From Glycomyces sp. YM15 (GTDB lineage: Bacteria > Actinomycetota > Actinomycetes > Mycobacteriales > Micromonosporaceae), in NCBI RefSeq assembly GCF_016918015.1, contig NZ_JAERMK010000004.1, positions 1 to 64,000 on the forward strand: a stretch of DNA of 64,000 nucleotides, given 5' to 3'. Below, in pieces: positions 3,351-64,000 of the stretch. The number at the start of each line of letters is the position of its first letter. Position 1 is the first letter of the stretch. Under the pieces are notes generated by a model. The model was not told where the DNA came from. It saw only the letters and a program-made list of their open reading frames with translations, and made no database searches. A program made the translations under genes and the position numbers.

Positions 3351-4352
3351 ATGGGGAAACGCCCGACCAGTCACGACGTCGCGAGACTCGCCGGAGTCTC
3401 GCAGTCGACCGTCTCGTTCGTGTTCACCGGGCGCGCCGGCATCTCGACCGCCACCCGCGACAAGGTCATGAGCGCGGCCGCGGAACTCAACTACCGCCCC
3501 AACCTCGCCGCACGCTCCATGCGCACGCAGCGGACCGGGCGGCTCGCGATCGTCATCCCCTTCCCGGGGCTGAGCCTCGGACCGCTCCTCGAGGGCGCGG
3601 TGACCACCGCGCGCGAGACCGGCTACATGGTCGAAGTCGTCAACCTGCCGCAGGACCCTGACGAGCATGCGCAGGAGGTCGACGCGATCCTCAACTCGTT
3701 CGAGTACGAGGGGGTCCTCTCGTTCTCCCCGATACCGACCCCGCGGATGTCGTCCGCGGCGGCCGCTCCCGCGTTCCTCGCCCTCACCGAGTTCGACGAG
3801 GAAATGCACGCCACGGGCGCGTTCAGCGACGCGCGTCCGCTCGTGGAGATGATGGAACATCTCGTCGGCCTCGGGCACCGGCGGTTCCTGCACATCGCGG
3901 GCCCTGCCGACTACCCCGCAGCGGTCGCACGCCGCGATGCCTACCTCGCGACCGTCGATCGGCTCGAGTTGGAGTCCGTCGGTGTCGTGGGCGGCGACTG
4001 GAGCGGCATCCATGCTGGGGAATGTGTCGGCGAGCTGCCGGACGACGTTCCCCCGCTCGCGATCATCGCCGCGAACGACGTCCTCGCGGCAGGGGCCATC
4101 CGGGCTTCTCTCCAACGTGGATGGTCCGTTCCCGGGGACGTGAGCGTGACCGGCTGGGACGACGTGCCACTGAGTCTCCACTTCCTCCCGTCCATCACAA
4201 CGGTCTCCCAGGATCGGCGGCGCCTCGGCGCCTACTCGATGCGCCGCCTGATCGCCGCGATCCGCAGGGACGAGGCGCCCGAACAGGAAGCGGACCTGCA
4301 GCAGGTCATCTGGCGCGAGTCGATCGCACCGCCCCGCCGGCCCGGCGCCTGA
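3351..4352 (+). CDS. LacI-family transcriptional regulator
   Basis: 333 residues. The N-terminal helix-turn-helix is textbook (TSHDVARLAGVSQSTVSFV...), followed by the hinge helix region (YRPNLAARSMR) and a periplasmic-binding-protein-like effector domain ending in WDDVPLS...ITTVSQDRRRLG. The ATG at 3351 is chosen over 3336 because a GGAGG (3338-3342) sits 8 nt upstream of it. It is transcribed away from the Gfo/Idh-cupin operon across the palindrome at 3254-3280 and so is the likely sugar-responsive repressor of that operon. The effector is unknown. Confidence 0.92.
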   Translation: MGKRPTSHDVARLAGVSQSTVSFVFTGRAGISTATRDKVMSAAAELNYRPNLAARSMRTQRTGRLAIVIPFPGLSLGPLLEGAVTTARETGYMVEVVNLPQDPDEHAQEVDAILNSFEYEGVLSFSPIPTPRMSSAAAAPAFLALTEFDEEMHATGAFSDARPLVEMMEHLVGLGHRRFLHIAGPADYPAAVARRDAYLATVDRLELESVGVVGGDWSGIHAGECVGELPDDVPPLAIIAANDVLAAGAIRASLQRGWSVPGDVSVTGWDDVPLSLHFLPSITTVSQDRRRLGAYSMRRLIAAIRRDEAPEQEADLQQVIWRESIAPPRRPGA

Positions 4353-53311: not shown

Positions 53312-54532
53312 CTACGTGCCTTCCAGGCTGGGGCCATTGAGGCCCACTGGGTCTTGGGCCAGGCCTGTCGAGCGGACCCAGTCGAAGGGGGCGTAGACCG
53401 CGGGGCCAAGGCCCAGGTTTTCGGCCACCAGTTCGCGCAGGCGATTCGAGGCGAAGGCTCCGATGACGTTCATCTGGGCGTCCCGGTAGAGACGTTCGAC
53501 CTCGTGGCCTGCGGTGACGCCGGTGGCGCCATGAATCTGGACGGCGCGTTCAGTGACACCCACCGCCATTTCCGTGGCGTATATCTTCAGCATGGCGATG
53601 AGGCTCCGCGCCGGCCGGCCGGCCGTGCGCTCGGCCGCCGCACGGCGGGCAAGGAGGCGGGCGGCGTCGATCTCGGCCCGCGACAGGGCGATCTGCGCTT
53701 GGACGCCTTCCATGTGCGCCAAGGGCCTTCCGAAGGAGACCCGCGATCCGGCGTGCGCCACCGAAGCGGCCAGCGCCGATTCGGCGATGCCGATCGCGGC
53801 GACGGAAACGAGCAGCCAGCCCCAGGTCATCCCCTCTGAGAGTTCGTCGAGCGGGACGGGGATGACGTCGGCCTCGGCGACGAGTGCGTCGGTGAAGACG
53901 AGTCCGCCCCAGGGCATGCCGCGCAGGCCCATGTGCGGGATCGCGTAGCGGTGGACGCCGGGCTGGTGCAGGTCGACGAAGGCCAGGCACCAGTCGGGCC
54001 CGTCGTCGCCGGCGGCGCGTTCGCGGCGGGCCAGGACGACGGCGAGGTCCGCGTTGGGGGCGTTGGTGATGCGGGATTTCTCGCCGGTGATGGTGAACCC
54101 GGTGCCGGCGGGGCCGGCAGAGCCGGGCGGGCTGGCGGGCCGGACGGTGGTCTGGTAGGTGCCGGCGTCGCTGCCGGCGGCGGTCTCGACGACGCCGAAG
54201 GCCGCGAGGCGGCGGCCGGAGATGAGGGCGTGGAGCAGGGGCCGGTGGGTGCTGTCGCCGTAGGTCGCGATGAGCTTGGCGCACAGAAGGGATGAGACGG
54301 TGGCGGACCAGTAGGTGCTGGGGCAGTCGCGGGCGAGGGCTTCCATCGCGGCGACCTGGGCGTCGCTGTCGGCGCCGCTGCCGCCGTCCTCATCGGAGTG
54401 GAACAGGGCGCCGTAACCGGCGTCGGCGAGCTCCTTCCAGTTCTGGGCCGGGATGTGGCCGGTGGTGTCGGTGTCGGCGGCGCGGGCCGCGATGCCGGGG
54501 TGTGCGGTGCGGGGGTGGTCGATGCGGAGCAT
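53312..54532 (-). CDS. Acyl-CoA dehydrogenase-family protein
   Basis: 406 residues with the three-domain acyl-CoA dehydrogenase layout: helical N-terminal domain (about 1-115), middle beta domain with FGVVETAAGSDAGTYQT and GFTITGEKSRITNAPNAD, and a C-terminal helical bundle ending IHGATGVTAGHEVERLYRDAQMN. FAD-dependent desaturation or a related oxidation of an acyl thioester is expected. It lies 13 bp after a second, shorter dehydrogenase, and the pair is divergent from the LysW operon, so they may tailor its product. Paired dehydrogenases often form heteromers in actinobacteria. Confidence 0.88.
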   Translation of the reverse strand: MLRIDHPRTAHPGIAARAADTDTTGHIPAQNWKELADAGYGALFHSDEDGGSGADSDAQVAAMEALARDCPSTYWSATVSSLLCAKLIATYGDSTHRPLLHALISGRRLAAFGVVETAAGSDAGTYQTTVRPASPPGSAGPAGTGFTITGEKSRITNAPNADLAVVLARRERAAGDDGPDWCLAFVDLHQPGVHRYAIPHMGLRGMPWGGLVFTDALVAEADVIPVPLDELSEGMTWGWLLVSVAAIGIAESALAASVAHAGSRVSFGRPLAHMEGVQAQIALSRAEIDAARLLARRAAAERTAGRPARSLIAMLKIYATEMAVGVTERAVQIHGATGVTAGHEVERLYRDAQMNVIGAFASNRLRELVAENLGLGPAVYAPFDWVRSTGLAQDPVGLNGPSLEGT

Positions 54533-54545
54533 GGTCTCTCCTGTT

Positions 54546-55577
54546 TCAGCCGAGTTCGAGGACGGAGGCGGCGACGACGGCGCGCAGGACTTCGCCGCCG
54601 CCGCCGGTGGCGGCGAAGAACGCGGCGTCGCGGTGGGCGCGTTCGGCGAGGCCGTCGGCGCTGTGCAGGTGCGCCGCGGCGGCGGTGACGGAGCGGACGG
54701 CGGCGGCCGTGAAGAGCCGGGTTGTGGCGGCGTGCTCGTAGGAGGGCCTGGCCCCGGAGCGGGTGCCGACGTCGAATTCGGCGGCGGCGCGGTGGAGCAT
54801 CCCGGCGGCGAGTTCGCATTGGACGGCCATGTCCGCCAGGTCGAGGCGCACGGACTGGGAGTGGGCGAGCGGGCGGCCGAAGCGGTGCCGGTCGCGGGCG
54901 TCGGCGACGGCGTCGCCGAGGAGTGCTCGCATCACGCCTATCCAAGGGGCGCAGGTGAAGACCCAGTCGAGGGCGGCCAGGAGGGGTTCGACCTCGCGGG
55001 CGGCCGCGCGCGGGGTGCCGAGGACGGCGTCATCGCCGAGGCGGCAGGAGTCGACGGTGAGGCGGCCCCAGAGGCAGGACGGCATGGCGCCGGACCCGGT
55101 CGGTTCGACCTGGAGGCCGGGGGTGTCGCGGTCGACGAGGAAGGCGGTGCGCTCTCCGTCGGGGTCGGCCGCGATGACGAGGAAGTGGTGGGCGGCGGGG
55201 GCGCCGGCGACGAGGTCGACCGTGCCGTCGAGGATCCAGTTTTTCTCGGCCCGTTGGGCGTTGACGGTGGGGGCGAGGGACGCGCCTTGGGTCTGGAGGA
55301 GTGAGACGGCGCCGGTCCACTCGCCGGAGGCCATGCGGGGCAGGTAGTGCCGCCGCTGGTCGGGAGTGCCGAAGGCGCGCATGGGGACGGTGGCGAGGAC
55401 GGCGTGGGCGACGGCGGCGAGGCCCAGGCCGGGGTCGCGGGAGCCTTCACCGAATGCTTCGAGGAGTTCGCAGGTCTCGGCGGCGGACAGGCCGCCGCCG
55501 CCGAGGTCGAGGGGCACGAGCGGGCCGGCGAGCCGAGTGGCGGCGTCGGTCGGTGCGGTGATGATCGGAATTGCCAT
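54546..55577 (-). CDS. Acyl-CoA dehydrogenase-family protein, short partner
   Basis: 343 residues (349 if the ATG at 55595 is used; neither has a strong ribosome site). It resembles acyl-CoA dehydrogenases in the middle and C-terminal domains (RRHYLPRMASGEWTGAVSLLQTQGASL; LDGTVDLVAGAPAAHHFLVIA; HRFGRPLAHSQSVRLDLADMAVQ). The N-terminal domain is shortened and the usual LTEPxxGSD flavin-contact motif has become LLQTQGASL. This reduced form suggests a non-catalytic or specialised partner of the 406-residue protein, possibly working on a carrier-bound substrate. Confidence 0.8.
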   Translation of the reverse strand: MAIPIITAPTDAATRLAGPLVPLDLGGGGLSAAETCELLEAFGEGSRDPGLGLAAVAHAVLATVPMRAFGTPDQRRHYLPRMASGEWTGAVSLLQTQGASLAPTVNAQRAEKNWILDGTVDLVAGAPAAHHFLVIAADPDGERTAFLVDRDTPGLQVEPTGSGAMPSCLWGRLTVDSCRLGDDAVLGTPRAAAREVEPLLAALDWVFTCAPWIGVMRALLGDAVADARDRHRFGRPLAHSQSVRLDLADMAVQCELAAGMLHRAAAEFDVGTRSGARPSYEHAATTRLFTAAAVRSVTAAAAHLHSADGLAERAHRDAAFFAATGGGGEVLRAVVAASVLELG

Positions 55578-55739
55578 CGGATCAGTCAACTCCATTTCGA
55601 TAGGAGTCGGCACCGGACGTCGAGAAGCGATGGTGGAAAACGGCGGTGCCGAGGTGATTGCCGGAATGGAAACGATATTAGCCCGAAGGACAACGGGGAG
55701 GAAGCATTGCGGTACGGTTTCATGAAGCAAAGCCGAAGA

Positions 55740-55787
55740 TTGACATTGCATCACATTCCCTTACATACCATCGCAGGTTCCTTACAC
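55740..55787 (+). promoter_or_regulatory. Candidate promoter with direct repeats for the LysW operon
   Basis: TTGACA (55740-55745) is followed after 16 bp by TACATA (55762-55767). Two near-identical direct repeats (TTCCCTTACA at 55756-55765 and TTCCTTACA at 55778-55786) are spaced by 22 bp, two helical turns. Direct repeats on this period are how SARP-type activators of secondary metabolism bind. No such regulator gene is in the window. Confidence 0.45.
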
Positions 55788-55887
55788 GCTCATGACCTGG
55801 CGATAGTGGTGTTCTCACAAGGTATCCGGTTAGGCTCTGCACGTCGTTTCAACCCCCTTCGATTTGCAGCGAATAGGAGGGAAGGCA

Positions 55888-57039
55888 ATGCCGGAAAATG
55901 ATTCCGCCACGCATTCCCGTATTGATGTACCGCATTTGTCCGACGCCACTCTGCGCGATTCCGCGCATATGGCGGGCGTCGAATTCAGTCCCGCCGATGC
56001 GACCTCGATCGCCGAGTTGCTGGTGAGGACCGGCATCGAGCTGGTCGAGGTCGGCATGGTGTCCGGGCCGGGTTCGAAGGACGCCCACTTGATCGAGGCC
56101 GTCCACGCGGCGGTCGGCTCCGAGCGCGCCATGACCCTGGTGGTCGTCCGCGACCGGCAGCAGGTCAAGCAGGCTCTCGACGAGGCCGCCGCCCTCGGCG
56201 TCCACCACGTCATGTACTCCATCCCCACCTCGGAGGAGCACGCGGCCATCAAACTCGGCTCGCCGAGCCCGAAGTTCCTCCAGACCCTGGCGAAGGCCGC
56301 GATCGGCGAGGCGAAGGACCGCGGCTTCCACGTCACCTTCAGCGGCGAGGACGGGGCTCGCACCCCGACCGAGCGGCTCGTCCCCTACGTCGCCGCGGGC
56401 TTCGCGGCCGGCGCGGACCGGTTCCGCCTGGCCGAGACCGTCGCCTACCTGACGCCCTGGCAGATGGAGGCCAAGATCGCCGAGCTCACCGCGATCGACG
56501 GCTCCGAGATCGAGATCCATTCGCACAACATGCTGGGCATGGCCGTGGCGAACTCGCTCGCGGCCGTCCGGGCCGGGGCCCGGTGGGTCTCGGCCACCGT
56601 GGGCGGCATCGGCGAGCGCGGCGGCAACGCCCCCCTGGCCGAACTGCTCATGGCGCTGCGGATCGTCCACGGCGACGAGCGCTTCGACCTGCGCCACCTC
56701 ACCCGGCTCGCGCAGATCGCTCTGCGGGGCTCCGGCCTCGGGGACGCGTTCCAGTCCGGTCCGACCGCCCCGCACGCGTTCGCGTACGAACTGCCCGGCC
56801 AGCTCCAGAACCCGGCGGCATACGAAACGCTGCCGGCCGAGCTGGTCGGCAACGAGCGCCGACTCCGCGTCCGCACCCGCCTCACCACCGCCCTGGTCCG
56901 CTGGGCGCTCGACGAACTGGCCGATTCGGTCGACGTCGCGGACTTCACCGCCTGGCTCGCCGAGCGCCAGGCGGCGCAGGGCGGGCCGGTCCTCGACCGC
57001 GACGCGATCCGCAAGGCCGCCGTCGACTTCCCCGGCTGA
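55888..57039 (+). CDS. Homocitrate/2-isopropylmalate synthase-like (DRE-TIM) enzyme
   Basis: 383 residues. A TIM-barrel aldolase of the HMGL/LeuA/NifV family: the metal and catalytic motif appears as HLSDATLRDSAHMAGVEF (the usual DxTLRDGxQ with changes after the Arg-Asp), the metal His pair as IEIHSHNMLGMAVANSLAA and the conserved loop as GGIGERGGNAPLAEL. It should condense an acyl-CoA, such as acetyl-CoA, with a 2-oxoacid. GGAGGG (55877-55882) lies 5 nt before the ATG. As first gene of the LysW operon it probably makes the 2-oxoacid precursor, as homocitrate synthase does for alpha-aminoadipate, but the altered active-site motif leaves the substrate open. Confidence 0.88.
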   Translation: MPENDSATHSRIDVPHLSDATLRDSAHMAGVEFSPADATSIAELLVRTGIELVEVGMVSGPGSKDAHLIEAVHAAVGSERAMTLVVVRDRQQVKQALDEAAALGVHHVMYSIPTSEEHAAIKLGSPSPKFLQTLAKAAIGEAKDRGFHVTFSGEDGARTPTERLVPYVAAGFAAGADRFRLAETVAYLTPWQMEAKIAELTAIDGSEIEIHSHNMLGMAVANSLAAVRAGARWVSATVGGIGERGGNAPLAELLMALRIVHGDERFDLRHLTRLAQIALRGSGLGDAFQSGPTAPHAFAYELPGQLQNPAAYETLPAELVGNERRLRVRTRLTTALVRWALDELADSVDVADFTAWLAERQAAQGGPVLDRDAIRKAAVDFPG

Positions 57040-57078: not shown

Positions 57079-57264
57079 ATGACCGCTGCCACCCTGACGG
57101 GCACCTGCCCCGAGTGCGAGACCGACCTGACCGTCCCCCCGATGGGCGAGGGCGAGACCCTGTCCTGCCCCGAATGCATGCTGACCCTCCGGGTCGAGGC
57201 CGTCGAGGACGGCCGCATGCACCTGCGCATGGTCGAAGTCGCGCTCCGCGACTGGGGCCAGTGA
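57079..57264 (+). CDS. lysW: LysW-type amino-group carrier protein with Gln terminus
   Basis: 61 residues. A zinc-finger-like N-terminal half with two CPEC pairs (TCPECE at about 9-14 and SCPECM at about 29-34) and a short acidic C-terminal half, as in LysW. In known LysW proteins the chain ends in EDWGE and the last Glu side chain is amide-linked to the substrate amino group. Here the codons clearly read Arg-Asp-Trp-Gly-Gln-stop. GGAG lies 5 nt before the ATG at 57079. It is followed by LysX, LysY and LysZ homologues, so the carrier role is well supported although the attachment residue is not. Confidence 0.9.
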   Translation: MTAATLTGTCPECETDLTVPPMGEGETLSCPECMLTLRVEAVEDGRMHLRMVEVALRDWGQ

Positions 57265-57284
57265 GCGGCGTGAGGGGACCTGCC

Positions 57285-58136
57285 GTGAACCTCCGCGTCG
57301 CCGTCGTGGCCGACCGCGTCAGTTGGGAAGAACGCCAACTGATCGCGGCCGCCCCCGACGCGAACCTCGAACTGACCTGGGTCAACGACGAGTCACTGTG
57401 TCTGGGGGCCGAGGGCGCGCCCGCGCTCGCCGCCTACGACGCCGTACTCGTCCGCAGCCGCAGCTACACCCGCGGGGGCCTCATCGCCACCGCTGCCGAA
57501 GCCGCGGGCGTCCGCGTCTGCAACGCCGCCAAAGCCATCCGCGCCTGCGAGAACAAACTCGAACTGCGCACCGAGATGCACCGGGCCGGCATCCCCGCCG
57601 CCGACCACCGGCTCGTCCTGTCCCGCCGCGACTTCGAACTCGCCCTCGGCCAGATCCCACCGCCGTTCGTGCTCAAACCGATTTACGGCGGCATGGGCAA
57701 ACGCGTCACCCTCGTCCGCACCGCCGACACCGCCCAGTCCGTCTACGACTACGTCGAAGACCTCGGGCACGGCTTCGAGCAGGCCATGCTCGTGGAGCCG
57801 TTCCTCGACGGCGGCACCTCGATCCGGTGCTTCGTCGTCGGCCGCGAGATCGTCGCCGCCGCCGAGTTCGCCAGCGCGGGCGGGGACTGGCGCAGCAACG
57901 CCGCGCTGGGCAACCAGACGCGGGCGCTGCCGCGCGACCCCGCGCTCGCGAAGATCGTCGACGACGTGGTCGACGTGCTCGGCCCCGGCGTCTACGGCAT
58001 CGACCTGTTCCGCTCGGGCGGCGACCTCATCGTCAACGAGGTCAACCACGCGCCCGCGTTCAGGGCGGTGGCCGAGTCGACCGGTGTGGACGTGCCGCGG
58101 GCGATCGTCAACCACCTGCGGGAGGAGCTGTCATGA
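57285..58136 (+). CDS. lysX: LysX-like ATP-grasp ligase
   Basis: 283 residues, the size of LysX (about 280), the RimK-family enzyme that attaches the amino acid's alpha-amino group to the carrier's terminal residue. ATP-grasp features: ACENKLELRTEMHRAGIP, PPFVLKPIYGGMGKRVTLV and YGIDLFRSGGDLIVNEVNHAPAF with the metal-binding Asp/Glu/Asn. The start is taken as GTG at 57285 (GAGGGGA 6 nt upstream); in-frame GTGs at 57270 and 57261 are possible, the last overlapping the lysW stop. It overlaps lysY by 4 bp. Confidence 0.92.
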   Translation: MNLRVAVVADRVSWEERQLIAAAPDANLELTWVNDESLCLGAEGAPALAAYDAVLVRSRSYTRGGLIATAAEAAGVRVCNAAKAIRACENKLELRTEMHRAGIPAADHRLVLSRRDFELALGQIPPPFVLKPIYGGMGKRVTLVRTADTAQSVYDYVEDLGHGFEQAMLVEPFLDGGTSIRCFVVGREIVAAAEFASAGGDWRSNAALGNQTRALPRDPALAKIVDDVVDVLGPGVYGIDLFRSGGDLIVNEVNHAPAFRAVAESTGVDVPRAIVNHLREELS

Positions 58137-59191
58137 TCCGCGTGGGCATCGCGGGCGCCTCCGGCCTCGCGGGCGGCGAGCTGATCAGGCTCGTCACCCA
58201 GCACCCCGACCTGGAGCTGACGTTCCTGGGCGGGGCCTCGAACGCCGGAAAGCGGCCCTCCGAACTGCATCCGGGCCTGCGCATCGACCTCGACGGACTG
58301 GTCCTGGAGCCGGTCACGCCCGAGGTGGCCGACCGGGTCGACGTCATGTTCCTCGCGACTCCGGCACCGGTGTCGGCGGTGCTGGCGGCCGACCTGGCCG
58401 ACACGGTGCCTTCGGTCATCGACCTCAGCGGGGCCTTCCGCATCCGCCGTCCCGAGCTGCACGACCGGTGGTATCCGGACGTGCATCGCGGCACGGAGCT
58501 CACCGACCGGTTCGTGTACGGCGTGCCGGAGCTGGTGGGCGATGCGATGCAGGGCGCTTCGCTCATCTCGCTGCCCGGCTGCTTCGCCACGGCGATGACG
58601 CTGGGACTCGCGCCGCTCGTCATGGGGCTCGGCCTCGAACTCGATCGCGTTGTGGTGGACGGCAAGAGCGGGTCCAGCGGCGGCGGTCTGAACCTGCGGG
58701 TGCCCGATCTGCACCCGTTCCGCAGCGGCGCGATCGCGCCGTACGCGCCGGCCGGGCACCGACACGCGGCCGAGGTGGGCGACTTCTTCGAGCGGGCCAA
58801 GCCGGGCGTGCTCGGACGGATCGCCATGTCGGCGTACGGCGTCGGGCACGTGCGCGGGCTCCTGGTGAGCGCGTACGCGTTCACCGAGGCGGAGGTGACC
58901 GAGCGGGAGCTGCAGCGGGCCTACCTGCGGTTCTACAAGGGACGACGGTTCGTGCGGGTGCGGCGGCATCGCGAGACGCTGCTGCCGATGCCGGACCCGC
59001 AGGCCGTGCTCGGCTCGAACTACTGCGACGTCACGGTGGTCCACGACGAGGAGGGCGGGCGGATCGTCGTCCTGGCCGCGCTCGACAACCTCGTCAAAGG
59101 CGCTGCGGGCCAAGCGGTGCAGGCACTGAACCACCGGTTCGGCCTGCCGGAGGAGACCGGGCTGACCATGCACCCGGTGATGCCGGCATGA
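58133..59191 (+). CDS. lysY: LysY/ArgC-like N-acyl-aminoacyl-phosphate reductase
   Basis: 352 residues. The N-terminal NADP-binding motif is GIAGASGLAGGELIRLVTQHP and the catalytic cysteine is Cys150 in LISLPGCFATAMTLGLAPL. PAGHRHAAEVGDF and SAYGVGHVRGLLVSAYAF complete the ArgC pattern. In the LysW pathway it reduces the carrier-bound acyl phosphate made by LysZ to the semialdehyde. Genes lysX, lysY and lysZ overlap in series by 4 bp, which argues for stoichiometric expression. Confidence 0.93.
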   Translation: MIRVGIAGASGLAGGELIRLVTQHPDLELTFLGGASNAGKRPSELHPGLRIDLDGLVLEPVTPEVADRVDVMFLATPAPVSAVLAADLADTVPSVIDLSGAFRIRRPELHDRWYPDVHRGTELTDRFVYGVPELVGDAMQGASLISLPGCFATAMTLGLAPLVMGLGLELDRVVVDGKSGSSGGGLNLRVPDLHPFRSGAIAPYAPAGHRHAAEVGDFFERAKPGVLGRIAMSAYGVGHVRGLLVSAYAFTEAEVTERELQRAYLRFYKGRRFVRVRRHRETLLPMPDPQAVLGSNYCDVTVVHDEEGGRIVVLAALDNLVKGAAGQAVQALNHRFGLPEETGLTMHPVMPA

Positions 59192-59985
59192 GCGGGGCGG
59201 AGGCGACGGCGCTGGTCGTCAAAGTGGGCGGGTCCTGCTTGGAGGAGCTGCCGGACGCGTGGTGGGACGACCTGGCCGAGCACGGGCGCCGGCGGCCGCT
59301 GGTGCTGGTGCACGGCTGGTCGAAGCCGCTGCGGCGGTTCCACGCCCGCCACCGGGACCCGGCCGCGGTGCTGCGCGACCGCTACGGGAACCAGAGCCGC
59401 TGGACCACACCGGAGGTCATCGAGGACGTCAAGGCGGTGAGCCGCGGTATCGGGGACGGGATCTGCGACCGCTTGCGCGAGCGGGGCATCGCCGCGGACC
59501 GGATCCTCGGCAGCGACGGGCTGCTCCACGCCGGACCGGGCGAGCGCTGGTGGTGGCGCGAGAAGCAGCTCGTGGAGATGGCGAACCTGGTCGGTCCGGT
59601 AACCGGGGCCGACCCGACCCTCCTGAAGGACCTGCGACCCGGCATGGCGCGGCTGGTGACCCCGTTGGCCCGCAACAACGTCGGGCAGGAGGTGAACACG
59701 GACGCCGACCGGGCGGCCGCGGCCGCCGCCGCGGCGCTCGGCGCGGCCGAACTGGTGCTCGTCACCGACGTGGCCCACCTGCTCATCGACGGGCAACCGG
59801 TCGTCCAGATCGCCGCGCGGGCGGCGGCCTCGTTCCGCGACGCCGGCGCCACCGGCGGCATGCGCAAGAAGCTCAGAGCGGCCGGTGAGGCGCTGGAGGG
59901 CGGGGTGGGCCGGGTCGTCATCGGCACCGGCTCCGTCACCGACCTGCTCGCCGGGCGCACCGGCACCGTCATCAACCCTGATTGA
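59188..59985 (+). CDS. lysZ: LysZ/ArgB-like amino-acid kinase
   Basis: 265 residues of the amino-acid kinase family. The N-terminal VVKVGGSCLEEL holds the phosphate-binding Lys and glycine turn, LVLVHGWSKPLRRF replaces the common VHGGG, and LVLVTDVAHLLIDGQ and GATGGMRKKLRAAGEAL form the ATP site. It phosphorylates the distal carboxylate of the carrier-bound amino acid. The departures from ArgB (VHGWSKP) fit LysZ-type enzymes, which must accommodate a protein-bound substrate. Confidence 0.92.
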   Translation: MSGAEATALVVKVGGSCLEELPDAWWDDLAEHGRRRPLVLVHGWSKPLRRFHARHRDPAAVLRDRYGNQSRWTTPEVIEDVKAVSRGIGDGICDRLRERGIAADRILGSDGLLHAGPGERWWWREKQLVEMANLVGPVTGADPTLLKDLRPGMARLVTPLARNNVGQEVNTDADRAAAAAAAALGAAELVLVTDVAHLLIDGQPVVQIAARAAASFRDAGATGGMRKKLRAAGEALEGGVGRVVIGTGSVTDLLAGRTGTVINPD

Positions 59986-59995
59986 GGAGGATCCC

Positions 59996-60556
59996 ATGGG
60001 GCGACCCCGCGTGCTCGTCGTGAACAACGGCACCCTGTCCCTACCACAGCTCCGCGCCCGCTTCGAGACGCTGGGCGCCGAGGCCCATGCGGTCCCGGTG
60101 GCCGACGTACCATCCACAGTGAGCGGTCGATATGAGGCGATCGTGCTGAGCGGCACCAAGGTGCGAGCCTACGACACCGAGTTCTACCGGCCGCTCACCG
60201 ACCTGGTGATGGGCGCCGACGTGCCGGTCCTCGGCATCTGCGGCGGCATGCAGCTCATCGCCGCCGCGGCCGGTGGCCGTCTGGCCGAGGGCCCGCAGCG
60301 CGTGGGCGGCCACAAGGCCCACGTCGACAAGGACGAACCGCTGTTCGCCCACGTCGAGTCCACTGTGACCGTGTTCCACCGTCACACGCTCTACCTCCAG
60401 GAAGCGCCGGAGGGCTTCCGGACCATCGGGCGCTCCGACCAGGCGCCCGTGGAGTTCCTCTCCTCCGACGACGGCCGGATCCTCGGCTCCCAGGCGCACC
60501 TGGAGTTCCGCCCCGACGGCCTGGAGATCCTCCGCGGCTTCGCCGACCGCTTCTGA
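59996..60556 (+). CDS. Stand-alone class I glutamine amidotransferase
   Basis: 186 residues. A GuaA/TrpG-like glutaminase domain: Cys82 nucleophile in LGICGGMQLI, His168 and Glu170 in GSQAHLEF. RPRVLVVNNGTLSLPQLRARFE starts the fold. A GAGGAGG ribosome site precedes the ATG at 59996, 10 bp after lysZ. It would release ammonia from glutamine for a partner, perhaps the ATP-using ligase or reductive amination chemistry in the operon. It carries no synthetase domain of its own. Confidence 0.88.
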   Translation: MGRPRVLVVNNGTLSLPQLRARFETLGAEAHAVPVADVPSTVSGRYEAIVLSGTKVRAYDTEFYRPLTDLVMGADVPVLGICGGMQLIAAAAGGRLAEGPQRVGGHKAHVDKDEPLFAHVESTVTVFHRHTLYLQEAPEGFRTIGRSDQAPVEFLSSDDGRILGSQAHLEFRPDGLEILRGFADRF

Positions 60557-60580: not shown

Positions 60581-61690
60581 ATGATCCACGACAGCAAGCC
60601 CGCGCTCACCGCGCACCTCAACGGCTCCGGCGGCGACATCGAAGGCTGGGTGGTCGTCGACTCGCTGGTCGACGGCCTGGCGATGGGCGGCACCCGCATG
60701 ACCGCCGACGTCACCGAGGCCGAGGTCGCAGGCCTGGCGCGCGACATGACCCACAAGTTCGCGCTCGCCGGCCTGCGCATCGGCGGCGCGAAGGCCGGCA
60801 TCGTCGCGAGCGGCGGCGACCGGGAGCAGGTCTTCCGCACTTTCGGGCGCACCGTAAAGCCTCTGTTGCACGGCGGCGTCCACCTCGGCATCGACATGGG
60901 CGTCACCCCGGCCGACCGGGCCGTCTTCTTCGAGGAGGCCGGCTACGACCCGCGGTACCGCCTCGGTGCGGCCGACATGCCGATGGACTGGCGCACCTAC
61001 TACGAACCGCTCATCGACGCCACCGGCCACGGGGTCGGCACGGCCGTCGTCGCGGCCTTGGAGGCCGGCGGACGGTCCGGTCCTGCCCGCGTCGTCGTGC
61101 AGGGCTTCGGCGCGGTCGGCCGCGCCGTCGCCCGGTTCCTCGACGCGCGCGGGCACGTCGTCACCGGCATCGCCGACATCGACGGGACGCTCAGCGCGCC
61201 GAAGATCCCCGTGGACGACGTCGTCGCCGCCACCGACGAGTTCGGGCGCATCGACCGCTCGCGCCTGCCCGCGCACGTCAAGCGCATGGAGGGCCCGGAG
61301 GCCTGGCTCGACGTCGACGCCGACGTGCTGGTCCTCGCCGCGCAGCCGTACGCGCTCAACGCCGAGAACGCGCACCGGCTGCGGGTCCCACTGGTGGTCG
61401 AGGGCGCGAACCTCGCCTCCAGCGGCGAGGCCAAGGAGAAGGCCGCCGCCGCGGGCGTGGCCCTGGTGCCGGGGGTCATCGCGAACATCGGCGGCGCCGC
61501 CTCGGCGGCGCTCGCGGTCACGCGGGTCGTGCCGTTCGAACTGCCCGCCGCCCAGCGGAAGGCGTGGGTCTTCGACTGGGTGGCGAACAAGGTGCGGATC
61601 AACACGCAGTCGCTGCTGGCGATCGCGGCCGCCCAGCCGGCCGACGCCCTGTCGGAACTGCTCGACGTGCGGCTGAAGGAACTGCGATGA
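60581..61690 (+). CDS. Glu/Leu/Phe/Val dehydrogenase-family protein
   Basis: 369 residues. The catalytic lysine region reads MTHKFALAGLRIGGAKAGI (Lys59 and Lys71; the usual GGAKGGI has Ala for one Gly), and the NAD-binding Rossmann motif is ARVVVQGFGAVGRAVARFLDARG. VVEGANLASSGEAKEKAAAAGVALVPGVIANIGGAA is the family's C-terminal substrate loop. It should interconvert an amino acid and its 2-oxoacid using ammonia, so it could use the ammonia from the neighbouring amidotransferase. It begins 24 bp after that gene and overlaps the ligase start by 4 bp. Confidence 0.9.
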   Translation: MIHDSKPALTAHLNGSGGDIEGWVVVDSLVDGLAMGGTRMTADVTEAEVAGLARDMTHKFALAGLRIGGAKAGIVASGGDREQVFRTFGRTVKPLLHGGVHLGIDMGVTPADRAVFFEEAGYDPRYRLGAADMPMDWRTYYEPLIDATGHGVGTAVVAALEAGGRSGPARVVVQGFGAVGRAVARFLDARGHVVTGIADIDGTLSAPKIPVDDVVAATDEFGRIDRSRLPAHVKRMEGPEAWLDVDADVLVLAAQPYALNAENAHRLRVPLVVEGANLASSGEAKEKAAAAGVALVPGVIANIGGAASAALAVTRVVPFELPAAQRKAWVFDWVANKVRINTQSLLAIAAAQPADALSELLDVRLKELR

Positions 61691-63306
61691 CCGTCGCGAC
61701 ACCTATGTCCATTGAGGACACTTCTGTGCAGTACCGGCGGCGCGGGTGGTGGCGTGAGACCACGTTCCTCGACGACCTGCGCCGCCAGGCGATCGAGCGG
61801 CCCCGCAAGACCGCGATCGCCGGTCGTCGCCTCGACGGGGCCCGCACCGACCTCCTCGACTACGCAGATCTGGAACGGCTGGCCGACCGCTTCGCGGACG
61901 GGCTCATCGAACTGGGGGTGCGCCCCGGGGACGTGGTCGCCGCGCAATTGCCGAACCGCTGGGAGGCGGTCCCGCTCATGTTCGCCTGCATGGCGGTCGG
62001 CGCGATCCTCTGCCCGATCGCACCCGAATGCGAGGGCGAGGACCTGCGCCACCGCCTGGCCCTCACCGAGGCGCGGCTGTGCGTCACCGTCGCCGCATGG
62101 CGCGGGCGACCGCTCGCGGCTCAGATGTGCGCACTGCGGGACGAGCTGCCGCTGGAGCGGATCGTCGTCATCGACGGCCCGCTCCCGCAGGGCGGCATCG
62201 ACTTCCACCGCCATTTCACTGGAAGGACCGGGGCGCGCACCGACCGGGACGCGACCGCGCTCGGCCCCGACGATCCGTTCGTGGTCCTGTTCACCTCCGG
62301 CACCACGGGCCTGCCGAAAGGGGTCGTGCACAGCCAGAACACGGTCTATGCGGGCATACGTGGCTACGCGGACGCGCTCATGCTCGACGACGGCCTGGTC
62401 GCGGCCGTGACGAACCCGCTCGTCCACTACTCCGGGTTCGCCCAGGGGATTCTCACCGGCGTCATGCTCGGCGGCACCGTCCTCTTCCAGGACGGCGCGG
62501 ACCCCGCCGGGATGCTCGGCCTGATCGAACGCCACCGCGCGACGCTCCTCTACGGCCCGCCGCCGACCCACACGGCCATCGCCGCCGCGCAGCGCTCCAC
62601 CCCGCACGACACGACCTCGCTGCGCCACAGCGTGGTCGGGGCGTCGCCCGTGGTACCCGAGCTCGAAGCGGAGCTGCGCACCACCTTCGGCACCCGCACC
62701 GCCTCGCTGTGGGGCATGTCCGAGTTCGGGCCGATCACCGTCAGCCGGCCCTGCTACGACCCCGACTGGGCCGCGCACAGCCACGGGCGGCCCATCGACG
62801 CCATGGAGCTGCGCATCGACGGCGACGCCGCGACCGGCCGGCTGCGGGTGCGCGGCGCGTCGAGGGCCTTGGGCTACTTCGGGAACCAGGACGCCTTCGA
62901 CGCCCAGATCGACGGCGACGGCTGGTTCGACACCGGCGACGTGGCGCGAGTGGACGGTCGCGGCGGCATCCGCATCCTCGGCCGCGCCGGCGACGCGATC
63001 GTGCGCGACGGCGAGGTCGCCCCGGTGGCCGAACTGGAAGCGCTCGCCGCCCGGCACCCGCACGTGGCCGAGGCCGCGCTCGTCGGCGCGCCCGGCACCG
63101 CGTCGATCCTGCTCGCCGCCGTGCCGCGGGACGGAGTCGCGCCTGAGCTGGCATCGGTTCGCGCCCACCTGACCGAACGCGGCGCCGACCCGCGGTTCCT
63201 CCCCGACCGTCTGGAAGTCCTTGCGGCCCTGCCCAAAACGCTCACCGGCAAGGTCCGCAAGACCGCGCTCCGCAAGTGCTACCTCACCCTCCAGGAGACG
63301 CCGTGA
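61687..63306 (+). CDS. AMP-forming acyl/aminoacyl ligase
   Basis: 539 residues of the ANL (acyl-CoA synthetase/NRPS adenylation) superfamily. The A3 phosphate loop is LFTSGTTGLPKGVVHS, A5 appears as SLWGMSEFGPI, A7 as GWFDTGDVARVD, and the catalytic A10 lysine as KTLTGKVRKTALR. It activates a carboxylate as its adenylate, then transfers it to CoA, a carrier or an amine. No carrier domain is fused. Within the operon it could activate the finished amino acid or an acyl partner for coupling. Confidence 0.92.
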   Translation: MTVATPMSIEDTSVQYRRRGWWRETTFLDDLRRQAIERPRKTAIAGRRLDGARTDLLDYADLERLADRFADGLIELGVRPGDVVAAQLPNRWEAVPLMFACMAVGAILCPIAPECEGEDLRHRLALTEARLCVTVAAWRGRPLAAQMCALRDELPLERIVVIDGPLPQGGIDFHRHFTGRTGARTDRDATALGPDDPFVVLFTSGTTGLPKGVVHSQNTVYAGIRGYADALMLDDGLVAAVTNPLVHYSGFAQGILTGVMLGGTVLFQDGADPAGMLGLIERHRATLLYGPPPTHTAIAAAQRSTPHDTTSLRHSVVGASPVVPELEAELRTTFGTRTASLWGMSEFGPITVSRPCYDPDWAAHSHGRPIDAMELRIDGDAATGRLRVRGASRALGYFGNQDAFDAQIDGDGWFDTGDVARVDGRGGIRILGRAGDAIVRDGEVAPVAELEALAARHPHVAEAALVGAPGTASILLAAVPRDGVAPELASVRAHLTERGADPRFLPDRLEVLAALPKTLTGKVRKTALRKCYLTLQETP

Positions 63307-64000
63307 CCGCGCCCGTCGCGATGTCCGCGACCCTCGCCGCCGATGAGGCCCTGGAACGGCGGCGGCGAGGGGGCGAGCGGGTCCTGTCCCTCGCCAGCGG
63401 CGAGATCGGCCTGCCGGTGCCGCCGCTCCTCGAAACGGCACTCGCCGCGGCCGTCGGGCGCACCGCCTACGGCCCCGTCGCAGGCGACCCCGCGCTGAGA
63501 GACGCCGCGGCGGGCTACTGGCACCGCCGCGGCGTCCCGGCCGACCCCGACCTCGTCGTGTGCGGTCCCGGCAGCAAGCCACTGCTGTTCGCCGCCATGC
63601 TCGCGATCGGCGGCGACGTGGTCGTGCCGGTGCCCAGCTGGGTCAGCTACGTGCAGCAGGCGAGGCTCGCCGGGGCCGAAGCCGTCGGCGTGCCGATCAT
63701 CCCGGGCCAGGGCGGCGTGCCCGACCCGGAGCGGCTGGCCGAGGCGGTGGCCCGCGCGCGGGCCTCGGGCCGGGACCCCCGGTCGGTAGTGGTCACCGTG
63801 CCGGACAACCCGACCGGAACCGTCGCGACGCCCGCGACGATGCGCCGCCTCACCGAAGCGGCCCGGGACCTCGACCTGGTCGTCATCGCCGACGAGATCT
63901 ACCGCGACCTCGTCTTCGACCCGGCCCTCCGGCCGCCCTCCCCCGCCGATTCCGCCCCCGAGCGGACCATCGTCACCACCGGCCTCACCAAGCACCTCGC
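63303..64000 (+). CDS. Class I/II PLP-dependent aminotransferase, cut by the window end
   Basis: The first 232 residues are visible; translation starts at GTG 63303 (overlapping the ligase stop). Fold type I signs: LSLASGEIGLPVPP at the substrate end, GPVAGDPALRDAAAGYWHRRG, cofactor-site VCGPGSKPLL, VTVPDNPTGT and VVIADEIYRDLVFD; the probable PLP lysine is in TTGLTKHLA just before the window stops. It would add the amino group to the carrier-bound semialdehyde (the LysJ role) or make an amino-acid precursor. Its usual length is about 390-400 residues, so roughly 40 per cent is missing. Confidence 0.9.
   Translation, partial: MTAPVAMSATLAADEALERRRRGGERVLSLASGEIGLPVPPLLETALAAAVGRTAYGPVAGDPALRDAAAGYWHRRGVPADPDLVVCGPGSKPLLFAAMLAIGGDVVVPVPSWVSYVQQARLAGAEAVGVPIIPGQGGVPDPERLAEAVARARASGRDPRSVVVTVPDNPTGTVATPATMRRLTEAARDLDLVVIADEIYRDLVFDPALRPPSPADSAPERTIVTTGLTKHL

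Follow-up and report, generated by a model that had tools for sequence, protein, structure and literature searches.

How can an amino-group carrier protein be loaded when it encodes no acceptor Glu? The question is raised by a LysW-like carrier gene in a 64,000-nucleotide stretch of Glycomyces sp. YM15 (contig NZ_JAERMK010000004.1, positions 1 to 64,000), referred to below as the window. The amino-group carriers described in PMC9303977 and PMC10433800 take up their substrate on the side chain of a terminal Glu, and an E54A carrier mutant is an arginine auxotroph (PMC10433800). The window carrier, read from the DNA as MTAATLTGTCPECETDLTVPPMGEGETLSCPECMLTLRVEAVEDGRMHLRMVEVALRDWGQ and followed by a TGA stop, does not have the canonical tail EDWGE; it ends in RDWGQ, with CAG as its last codon. 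The protein is a zinc ribbon with CPEC occurring twice, the four cysteines are invariant in all 16 aligned sequences, and complete LysX, LysY and LysZ homologues adjoin the gene downstream. Its scores lie under the cut-offs of both LysW models, at 24.9 bits (cut-off 27) for PF21344 of Pfam and 41 bits (cut-off 75) for NF041070 of NCBIfam.

A preliminary description of this locus had taken the Gln end to be genuine and had concluded that some loading step must differ from that of canonical carriers. Both statements stand, and the Gln-ended system is a genuine variant of amino-group carriers that is shared by a whole clade. We think it rather probable that the missing acceptor reflects one of two arrangements: the carrier may be loaded on the main chain of its Gln and serve as a C-terminally extended peptide scaffold, or it may be made with an ammonia cap and be both opened and unloaded by one glutamine amidotransferase (GATase).

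The Gln end is conserved across the subfamily

The terminal Gln is a trait of the whole clade, attributable neither to chance nor to a sequencing error. Among 120 proteins listed of 165 matches to the window carrier, its own entry included, 118 end in Gln and 2 in Glu. Pooling these with a second search by a divergent profile (best 120 of 185 matches) gave 146 listed proteins, 138 with WGQ, 8 with WGE and none with another ending, which rules out a sequencing error or a local oddity. The canonical-type family differs: WGE is found in all 121 proteins listed, namely the best 120 of 458 matches together with the query P0121, a Streptomyces EDWGE carrier.

The same picture emerged from the DNA. 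In GTDB species genomes, a relative is encoded at 99 loci; the best 80 of these, taken best-first, comprise 77 distinct loci. Five of the 77 (L081–L085) encode distant zinc-ribbon proteins without a DWG tail, in Terriglobia or Acidobacteria genomes. In the other 72, LysW lies directly before LysX in 67 and is a stand-alone second copy in 5. The last codon is CAG (WGQ) in 66 of 68 LysX-adjacent LysW rows, one of which (L007) duplicates L025, and GAG (WGE) in the remaining two. WGQ endings thus recur beside the same LysX clade, a check that the preliminary description had suggested, and the concern that GAG had been misread as CAG at the last codon is not borne out. LRDWGQ also ends all 25 cassette LysW rows found in 24 of 392 sampled Streptomyces genomes (E up to 1e-10); these loci were read for the carrier end only, and 10 of the rows match a named locus exactly over 700 nt. 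Among 394 genomes drawn from the class to which the window belongs, three cassette-type carriers and one canonical-type carrier were found.

Glu-ended carriers occur in 2 of the 67 cassette loci, in Actinopolyspora alba (L074) and Rhodococcus qingshengii (L077). The preliminary description had named Glu-ended homologues in related genomes as grounds for giving up the claim. That objection holds in part: such homologues do exist in the same cassette, and they account for 8 of the 146 listed proteins, but the other 138 end in Gln. Gln is strongly preferred and, since Glu persists in the same cassette, not obligatory. The last LysW column (66 rows, 64 of them Q and 2 E, with L042 and L008 left out) needs two changes on a tree built from LysX, LysY and LysZ (68 rows); the average for LysW columns is 6.9 changes and the median 4, and the 20 of 61 columns that need none include the L, R, D, W and G directly before the last residue. 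Glu-ended A. alba sits among Gln rows on this tree, and Rhodococcus (Glu) and Brevibacterium (Gln) form long, unsure branches. The tree was built quickly, and L008, L077, L080 and the window have long branches on it. For L042, whose LysX lacks an adjoining LysW, the label Q was taken from the stand-alone copy.

The stop codon following the carrier varies across the 68 rows (TGA 63, TAG 3, TAA 2). Since it is not conserved, conserved read-through is unlikely, and extension of the chain, which had been proposed earlier, gains no support; trimming of the chain fares no better, as the residue to be trimmed is conserved.

The cassette is linked to iso-maleimycin biosynthesis

According to the text of PMC12022981, the gene cluster BGC23a of Streptomyces sp. 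QL37 contains an isopropylmalate synthase gene, lysW and rimK, and double deletion of lysW and rimK abolished both lugdunomycin and iso-maleimycin, a compound with a maleimide portion; that text assigns one locus number to both the AMP ligase and rimK. It names similar clusters in SM11, S. filamentosus and S. shenzhenensis, the last two without a strain number. In the genomes compared here, SM11 (L060), S. filamentosus (L037) and S. shenzhenensis (L067) each carry a single P0001-like LysW, and all three proteins end in WGQ. The main text of PMC12022981 makes no mention of the Gln end and contains neither 'C-terminal' nor 'glutamine'. The window has the gene order of BGC23a, with an HMGL/isopropylmalate-synthase-type gene, lysW and rimK adjoining. 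Sequence and gene order show that the carrier represents a distinct amino-group carrier subfamily within an iso-maleimycin-type biosynthetic cassette, and the product of the window may be of iso-maleimycin type. By analogy, the published knockout in QL37 supports the function of the cassette.

The eight same-strand genes of the window run HMGL-like, LysW, ligase, LysY, LysZ, GATase, Glu/Leu/Phe/Val (ELFV) dehydrogenase and AMP ligase, and this full order is kept in 62 of the 67 loci. The last two genes are swapped in Rhodococcus, and L049 and L071 are cut contigs. L046 (Streptomyces aurantiacus) and L070 (S. aureoverticillatus), sisters on the tree, have only HMGL-LysW-LysX-LysY-LysZ-GATase in the fetched stretch, and a search of their genomes with the window ELFV protein found weaker relatives only (at best 40% identical in one genome, matching only in part in the other).

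These data bear on the idea that Gln is a neutral or defective ending, whether an artefact, a pseudogene or a residue later removed or extended. Canonical carriers do need their Glu, as the E54A auxotrophy indicates (PMC10433800). That idea is nevertheless contradicted by the 138 of 146 listed proteins that end in Gln across many actinobacterial families, by the variable stop codon, and by the requirement for the lysW-rimK pair in iso-maleimycin production (PMC12022981) together with the WGQ ends in the three organisms named there, so that it has hardly any credibility left.

The adjoining ligase lacks the motif said to read the acceptor

Of the 72 named loci, 68 contain the cassette ligase, which lies beside LysW in all of these but L042; in the other four, the stretch includes a second copy of the carrier and breaks off within the cassette. 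In canonical systems, the ligase motif GSWGR is said to recognise the carrier tail EDWGE (PMC10433800). Its variable positions are S, W and R in 37 of 37 canonical ligases, whereas G, M or L, and K or R occupy them in 68 of 69 cassette ligases, the remaining row being a gap. Position 254 (Tth numbering) is E, Q or D in the canonical ligases (35, 1 and 1 of 37) and G or A in the cassette ligases, again in 68 of 69 with one gap. These differences follow the cassette and not the Q or E state of the carrier; with only two E rows, a coupling of ligase residues to the carrier end would be hard to discern.

Such a ligase might join the amine of the substrate to the alpha-carboxylate of the terminal Gln through an ordinary peptide bond; the side chain being uncharged, only the main chain could be loaded, and a separate peptidase would release the product. 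RimK, the ribosomal protein S6:glutamate ligase of the same superfamily, acts on the main-chain end of S6. The E. coli enzyme has G at position 254 in the alignment, a small residue as in the cassette ligase. Moreover, the window ligase scores 159.6 with TIGR00768, the broader RimK family (cut-off 143.4), and only 145.1 with TIGR02144, the LysX model (cut-off 275.6), and the replacement of GSWGR points the same way. Main-chain loading would also directly account for the preference of Gln over Glu. However, a bystander side chain should tolerate other residues, and none occurs among the 146 listed proteins; the eight conserved genes include no peptidase; and the GATase fold normally cuts gamma-glutamyl bonds. 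In the fold comparison LysX/ArgX ranks above RimK, with an overall fold of the LysX/ArgX kind. D177 and R193, common to canonical LysX and RimK, are both lost in the cassette ligase (S and F), so the enzyme is not simply RimK-like. Taken together, loading on the main chain is a serious competitor that we nonetheless consider unlikely.

A GATase-fold protein is found in place of a LysK-like peptidase

The gene following LysZ encodes a stand-alone class-I GATase-fold protein, present in 66 of the 67 cassette loci and missing only from a 9.6-kb contig that breaks off in LysY. Cys82, His168 and Glu170 are invariant in all 26 aligned sequences and form the class-I triad on the expected fold. The same fold and Cys-His-Glu triad are found in GMP synthase subunit A and in the gamma-glutamyl hydrolases PuuD and GGP1. 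The cassette protein differs from these in standing alone beside a carrier protein and in its loop SGTK, which reads SGGP in GMP synthase (GuaA) and PGSP in PuuD. Compared with the single sequences of PuuD and GuaA, SGTK gives a hint of likeness to gamma-glutamyl hydrolases. The closest relatives of the protein are GMP synthase GATase subunits. A one-to-one coupling of Gln ends to the GATase was rejected, since the Glu-ended L074 and L077 retain the gene.

Canonical loci present a different arrangement. The canonical set comprises 40 of 65 listed places, the last two of the 65 being cassette-type carriers, and its carriers end in WGE (38 of 40) or FGE (2 of 40). A match to the LysK-like M20 part of L008, a domain confirmed by Pfam, is found in 35 of the 40 loci, although some matches, at just 34–41% identity, may represent other M20 peptidases. 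The five loci without such a match (L147, L149, L158, L165 and L169) are also without a canonical-type LysX match. None of the 40 contains a match to the cassette GATase or HMGL protein. Conversely, the M20 query from L008 matched only L008 itself among L005–L085 (E 1e-3, stretches of up to 10 kb on each side) and had no match in the window (E 1e-2). Seven Streptomyces genomes (G554, G555, G729, G736, G743, G752 and G754) hold both carrier types. In these comparisons, three changes travel together: EDWGE to RDWGQ, GSWGR to GGMGK/R, and a LysK-like M20 peptidase to a GATase.

L008 (Streptomyces G317) is itself a canonical EDWGE cluster, in which an amino acid kinase is fused to an M20 peptidase; it also contains a sulfotransferase and an open reading frame (ORF) that reads as a transketolase. 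Another ORF at 3796–4686 of L008, taken by eye for a Family 3 encapsulin, has no Pfam match.

The GATase could be an ordinary ammonia donor, for an imide nitrogen or for the ELFV dehydrogenase, with no bearing on the carrier end; Gln would then be handled by a host deamidase, or the carrier loaded in some other way. The kinship with GMP synthase subunits points in this direction, and the maleimide portion of iso-maleimycin makes a nitrogen donor plausible (PMC12022981). No GuaA-type synthetase is present among the cassette genes profiled, and the ELFV dehydrogenase or the AMP ligase could use ammonia. Yet L046 and L070, whose stretches contain neither the ELFV dehydrogenase nor the AMP ligase, keep the GATase beside the carrier genes, and the cassette would be left without a visible releasing enzyme. 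A pure donor role is thus improbable.

GATases form gamma-glutamyl thioesters. A thioester formed with the carrier Gln might accordingly be passed straight to the substrate amine without ATP, leaving the ligase only to reload Glu-ended carriers. In its favour, both Q and E are tolerated at the carrier end. The cassette ligase, however, accompanies nearly all named carriers, and the ATP-grasp residues E248 and N250 (Tth numbering) of this enzyme do not vary, being present in 68 of 69 rows with a gap in the other. An ATP-free route would not need these residues, and direct transamidation is very unlikely.

A tentative scheme for loading and release

The reading that we favour, though tentatively, is that loading on a gamma-carboxylate is kept and that the GATase, by hydrolysing gamma-glutamyl amides, both unmasks the Gln and sets the product free. 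The GATase would convert WGQ to WGE and expose the acceptor, and the RimK/LysX-type ligase would join the amino group of the substrate to the gamma-carboxylate at the carrier C-terminus. LysZ and LysY would then convert the substrate carboxylate to an aldehyde, which the HMGL-type enzyme would extend. Finally, the GATase, in place of the metallopeptidase LysK, would hydrolyse the gamma-glutamyl amide and free the product. The carrier would thus be made capped, and only cells producing the releasing enzyme as well would open it.

One GATase could both unmask and release because the C-terminal Gln, as encoded, already is a gamma-glutamyl amide, that of ammonia, like the bond to the product. Hydrolysis by the GATase would explain why only Q or E is found, why canonical carriers without a GATase have E, why no LysK match was obtained and why the carrier genes keep the GATase beside them. 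In E. coli, PuuA gamma-glutamylates its substrate and PuuD removes the group; the proposed mechanism would apply the same logic to a carrier protein. Unmasking by the GATase does not by itself explain why Q is preferred over E. Whereas the conservation of the end, the synteny, the GATase found for a LysK-like gene and the change in the ligase motif are shown, and the need for the lysW-rimK pair is published for a relative, all of the bond chemistry proposed here is inferred.

The cassette in the window and its surroundings

The features of the window are collected in Table 1. A search of the genome with the window carrier matched only the carrier itself, and no relative was found in 21 sampled congeners or in the other genomes among the 61 searched. 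Because the sampled congeners have no carrier relative, the cassette was probably acquired horizontally in this genome (G000, contig C34).

Table 1. Position, strand and characteristics of the carrier cassette and flanking genes in the window.
Feature	Position	Strand	Remarks
Two acyl-CoA-dehydrogenase-like genes	53312-54532, 54546-55754	-	each in 12 stretches, window included
HMGL-like homocitrate/isopropylmalate-synthase-type carboligase	55864-57039	+	PF00682 172 bits; nifV_homocitr 209 bits, below cut-off; start TTG 55864, or ATG 55888 by inspection
LysW-like amino-group carrier protein, 61 aa	57079-57264	+	two CPEC zinc motifs; C-terminus LRDWGQ
Codon CAG for terminal Gln (canonical position: Glu)	57259-57261	+	66 CAG : 2 GAG in 68 rows
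LysX/RimK-like ATP-grasp ligase	57261-58136	+	start GTG 57261 or GTG 57288; GGMGK replaces GSWGR
LysY/ArgC-like acyl-phosphate reductase	58133-59191	+	TIGR01850 326 bits, above cut-off 233.6
LysZ/ArgB-like amino acid kinase	59188-59985	+	PF00696 69.7 bits, above cut-off; NF010659 103.6 of 223 bits
Stand-alone class-I GATase-fold protein	59996-60556	+	Cys82, His168, Glu170 triad
ELFV dehydrogenase	60581-61690	+	PF00208, PF02812
AMP-binding acyl ligase	61687-63306	+	PF00501 224 bits
Class I/II aminotransferase gene start	63276-64000	+	PF00155 161 bits; ends ~64550 in contig, past window

Several gene families recur around the cassette, with stretch counts that are approximate because genes were called by a rough codon-position heuristic. 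The aminotransferase family is present in 43 compared stretches, the window's gene being counted twice. The acyl-CoA-dehydrogenase-like pair accompanies the cassette in a minority of loci; its NCBIfam matches include prolyl-carrier-protein dehydrogenases (RedW/PigA), far below cut-off. A family of ~255 aa is found in 40 stretches, its L042 member weakly matching arylmalonate decarboxylase PF17645, and was not found in the window's stretch. Another of ~300 aa, in 50 stretches, has no Pfam match, and the member of the window genome lies just past the window end. The places concerned are in loci L009–L080, mostly 2–3 kb upstream on the minus strand, and at 2520–3461 of L005.

Individual loci show further variation. 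A DapB-type gene (PF01113, PF05173) lies directly upstream of the HMGL gene in L046. Five Streptomyces loci (L034, L035, L042, L050 and L053) contain a second, stand-alone LysW that also ends in WGQ and is oriented opposite to the cassette; the L050 copy is situated immediately upstream of an ORF belonging to the window-aminotransferase family.

Relation to known carrier systems

The LysW/ArgW systems of lysine and arginine biosynthesis in Thermus, Sulfolobus, Thermococcus and Natrinema share with the window the two-CxxC zinc ribbon, the DWG tail, the LysX/Y/Z partners and the ligase fold. The window cassette differs from them in RDWGQ, GGMGK/R, the GATase, the lack of a LysK match and the LysW scores under the cut-offs. 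The canonical-type Streptomyces carriers of the P0121 family, L008 included, have the same set of carrier, ligase, reductase and kinase as the cassette and are set apart by the WGE ends, the frequent LysK-like match and the absence of cassette GATase or HMGL matches described above. This family is probably vazabitide A-like, where the carrier is Vzb22 (PMC9303977). Pearlin/TglA scaffolds likewise build an amino acid on the end of a ribosomal scaffold, but by tRNA-dependent main-chain extension and with no LysX-type ligase (PMC9303977, PMC9016710).

No report of a Gln-ended carrier or of 'DWGQ' was found in the open-access literature searched, which was available in part, and prior notice is possible.

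Implications

A large actinobacterial subfamily has replaced the acceptor residue of its carrier, the ligase motif said to read that residue and, seemingly, the unloading enzyme, and the cassette that unites all three is tied to a known natural product. Carrier loading may thus have a second chemistry. Where genome mining relies on a terminal Glu or on LysK, clusters of this kind would go unnoticed or be wrongly named; the window carrier itself scores under both LysW model cut-offs.
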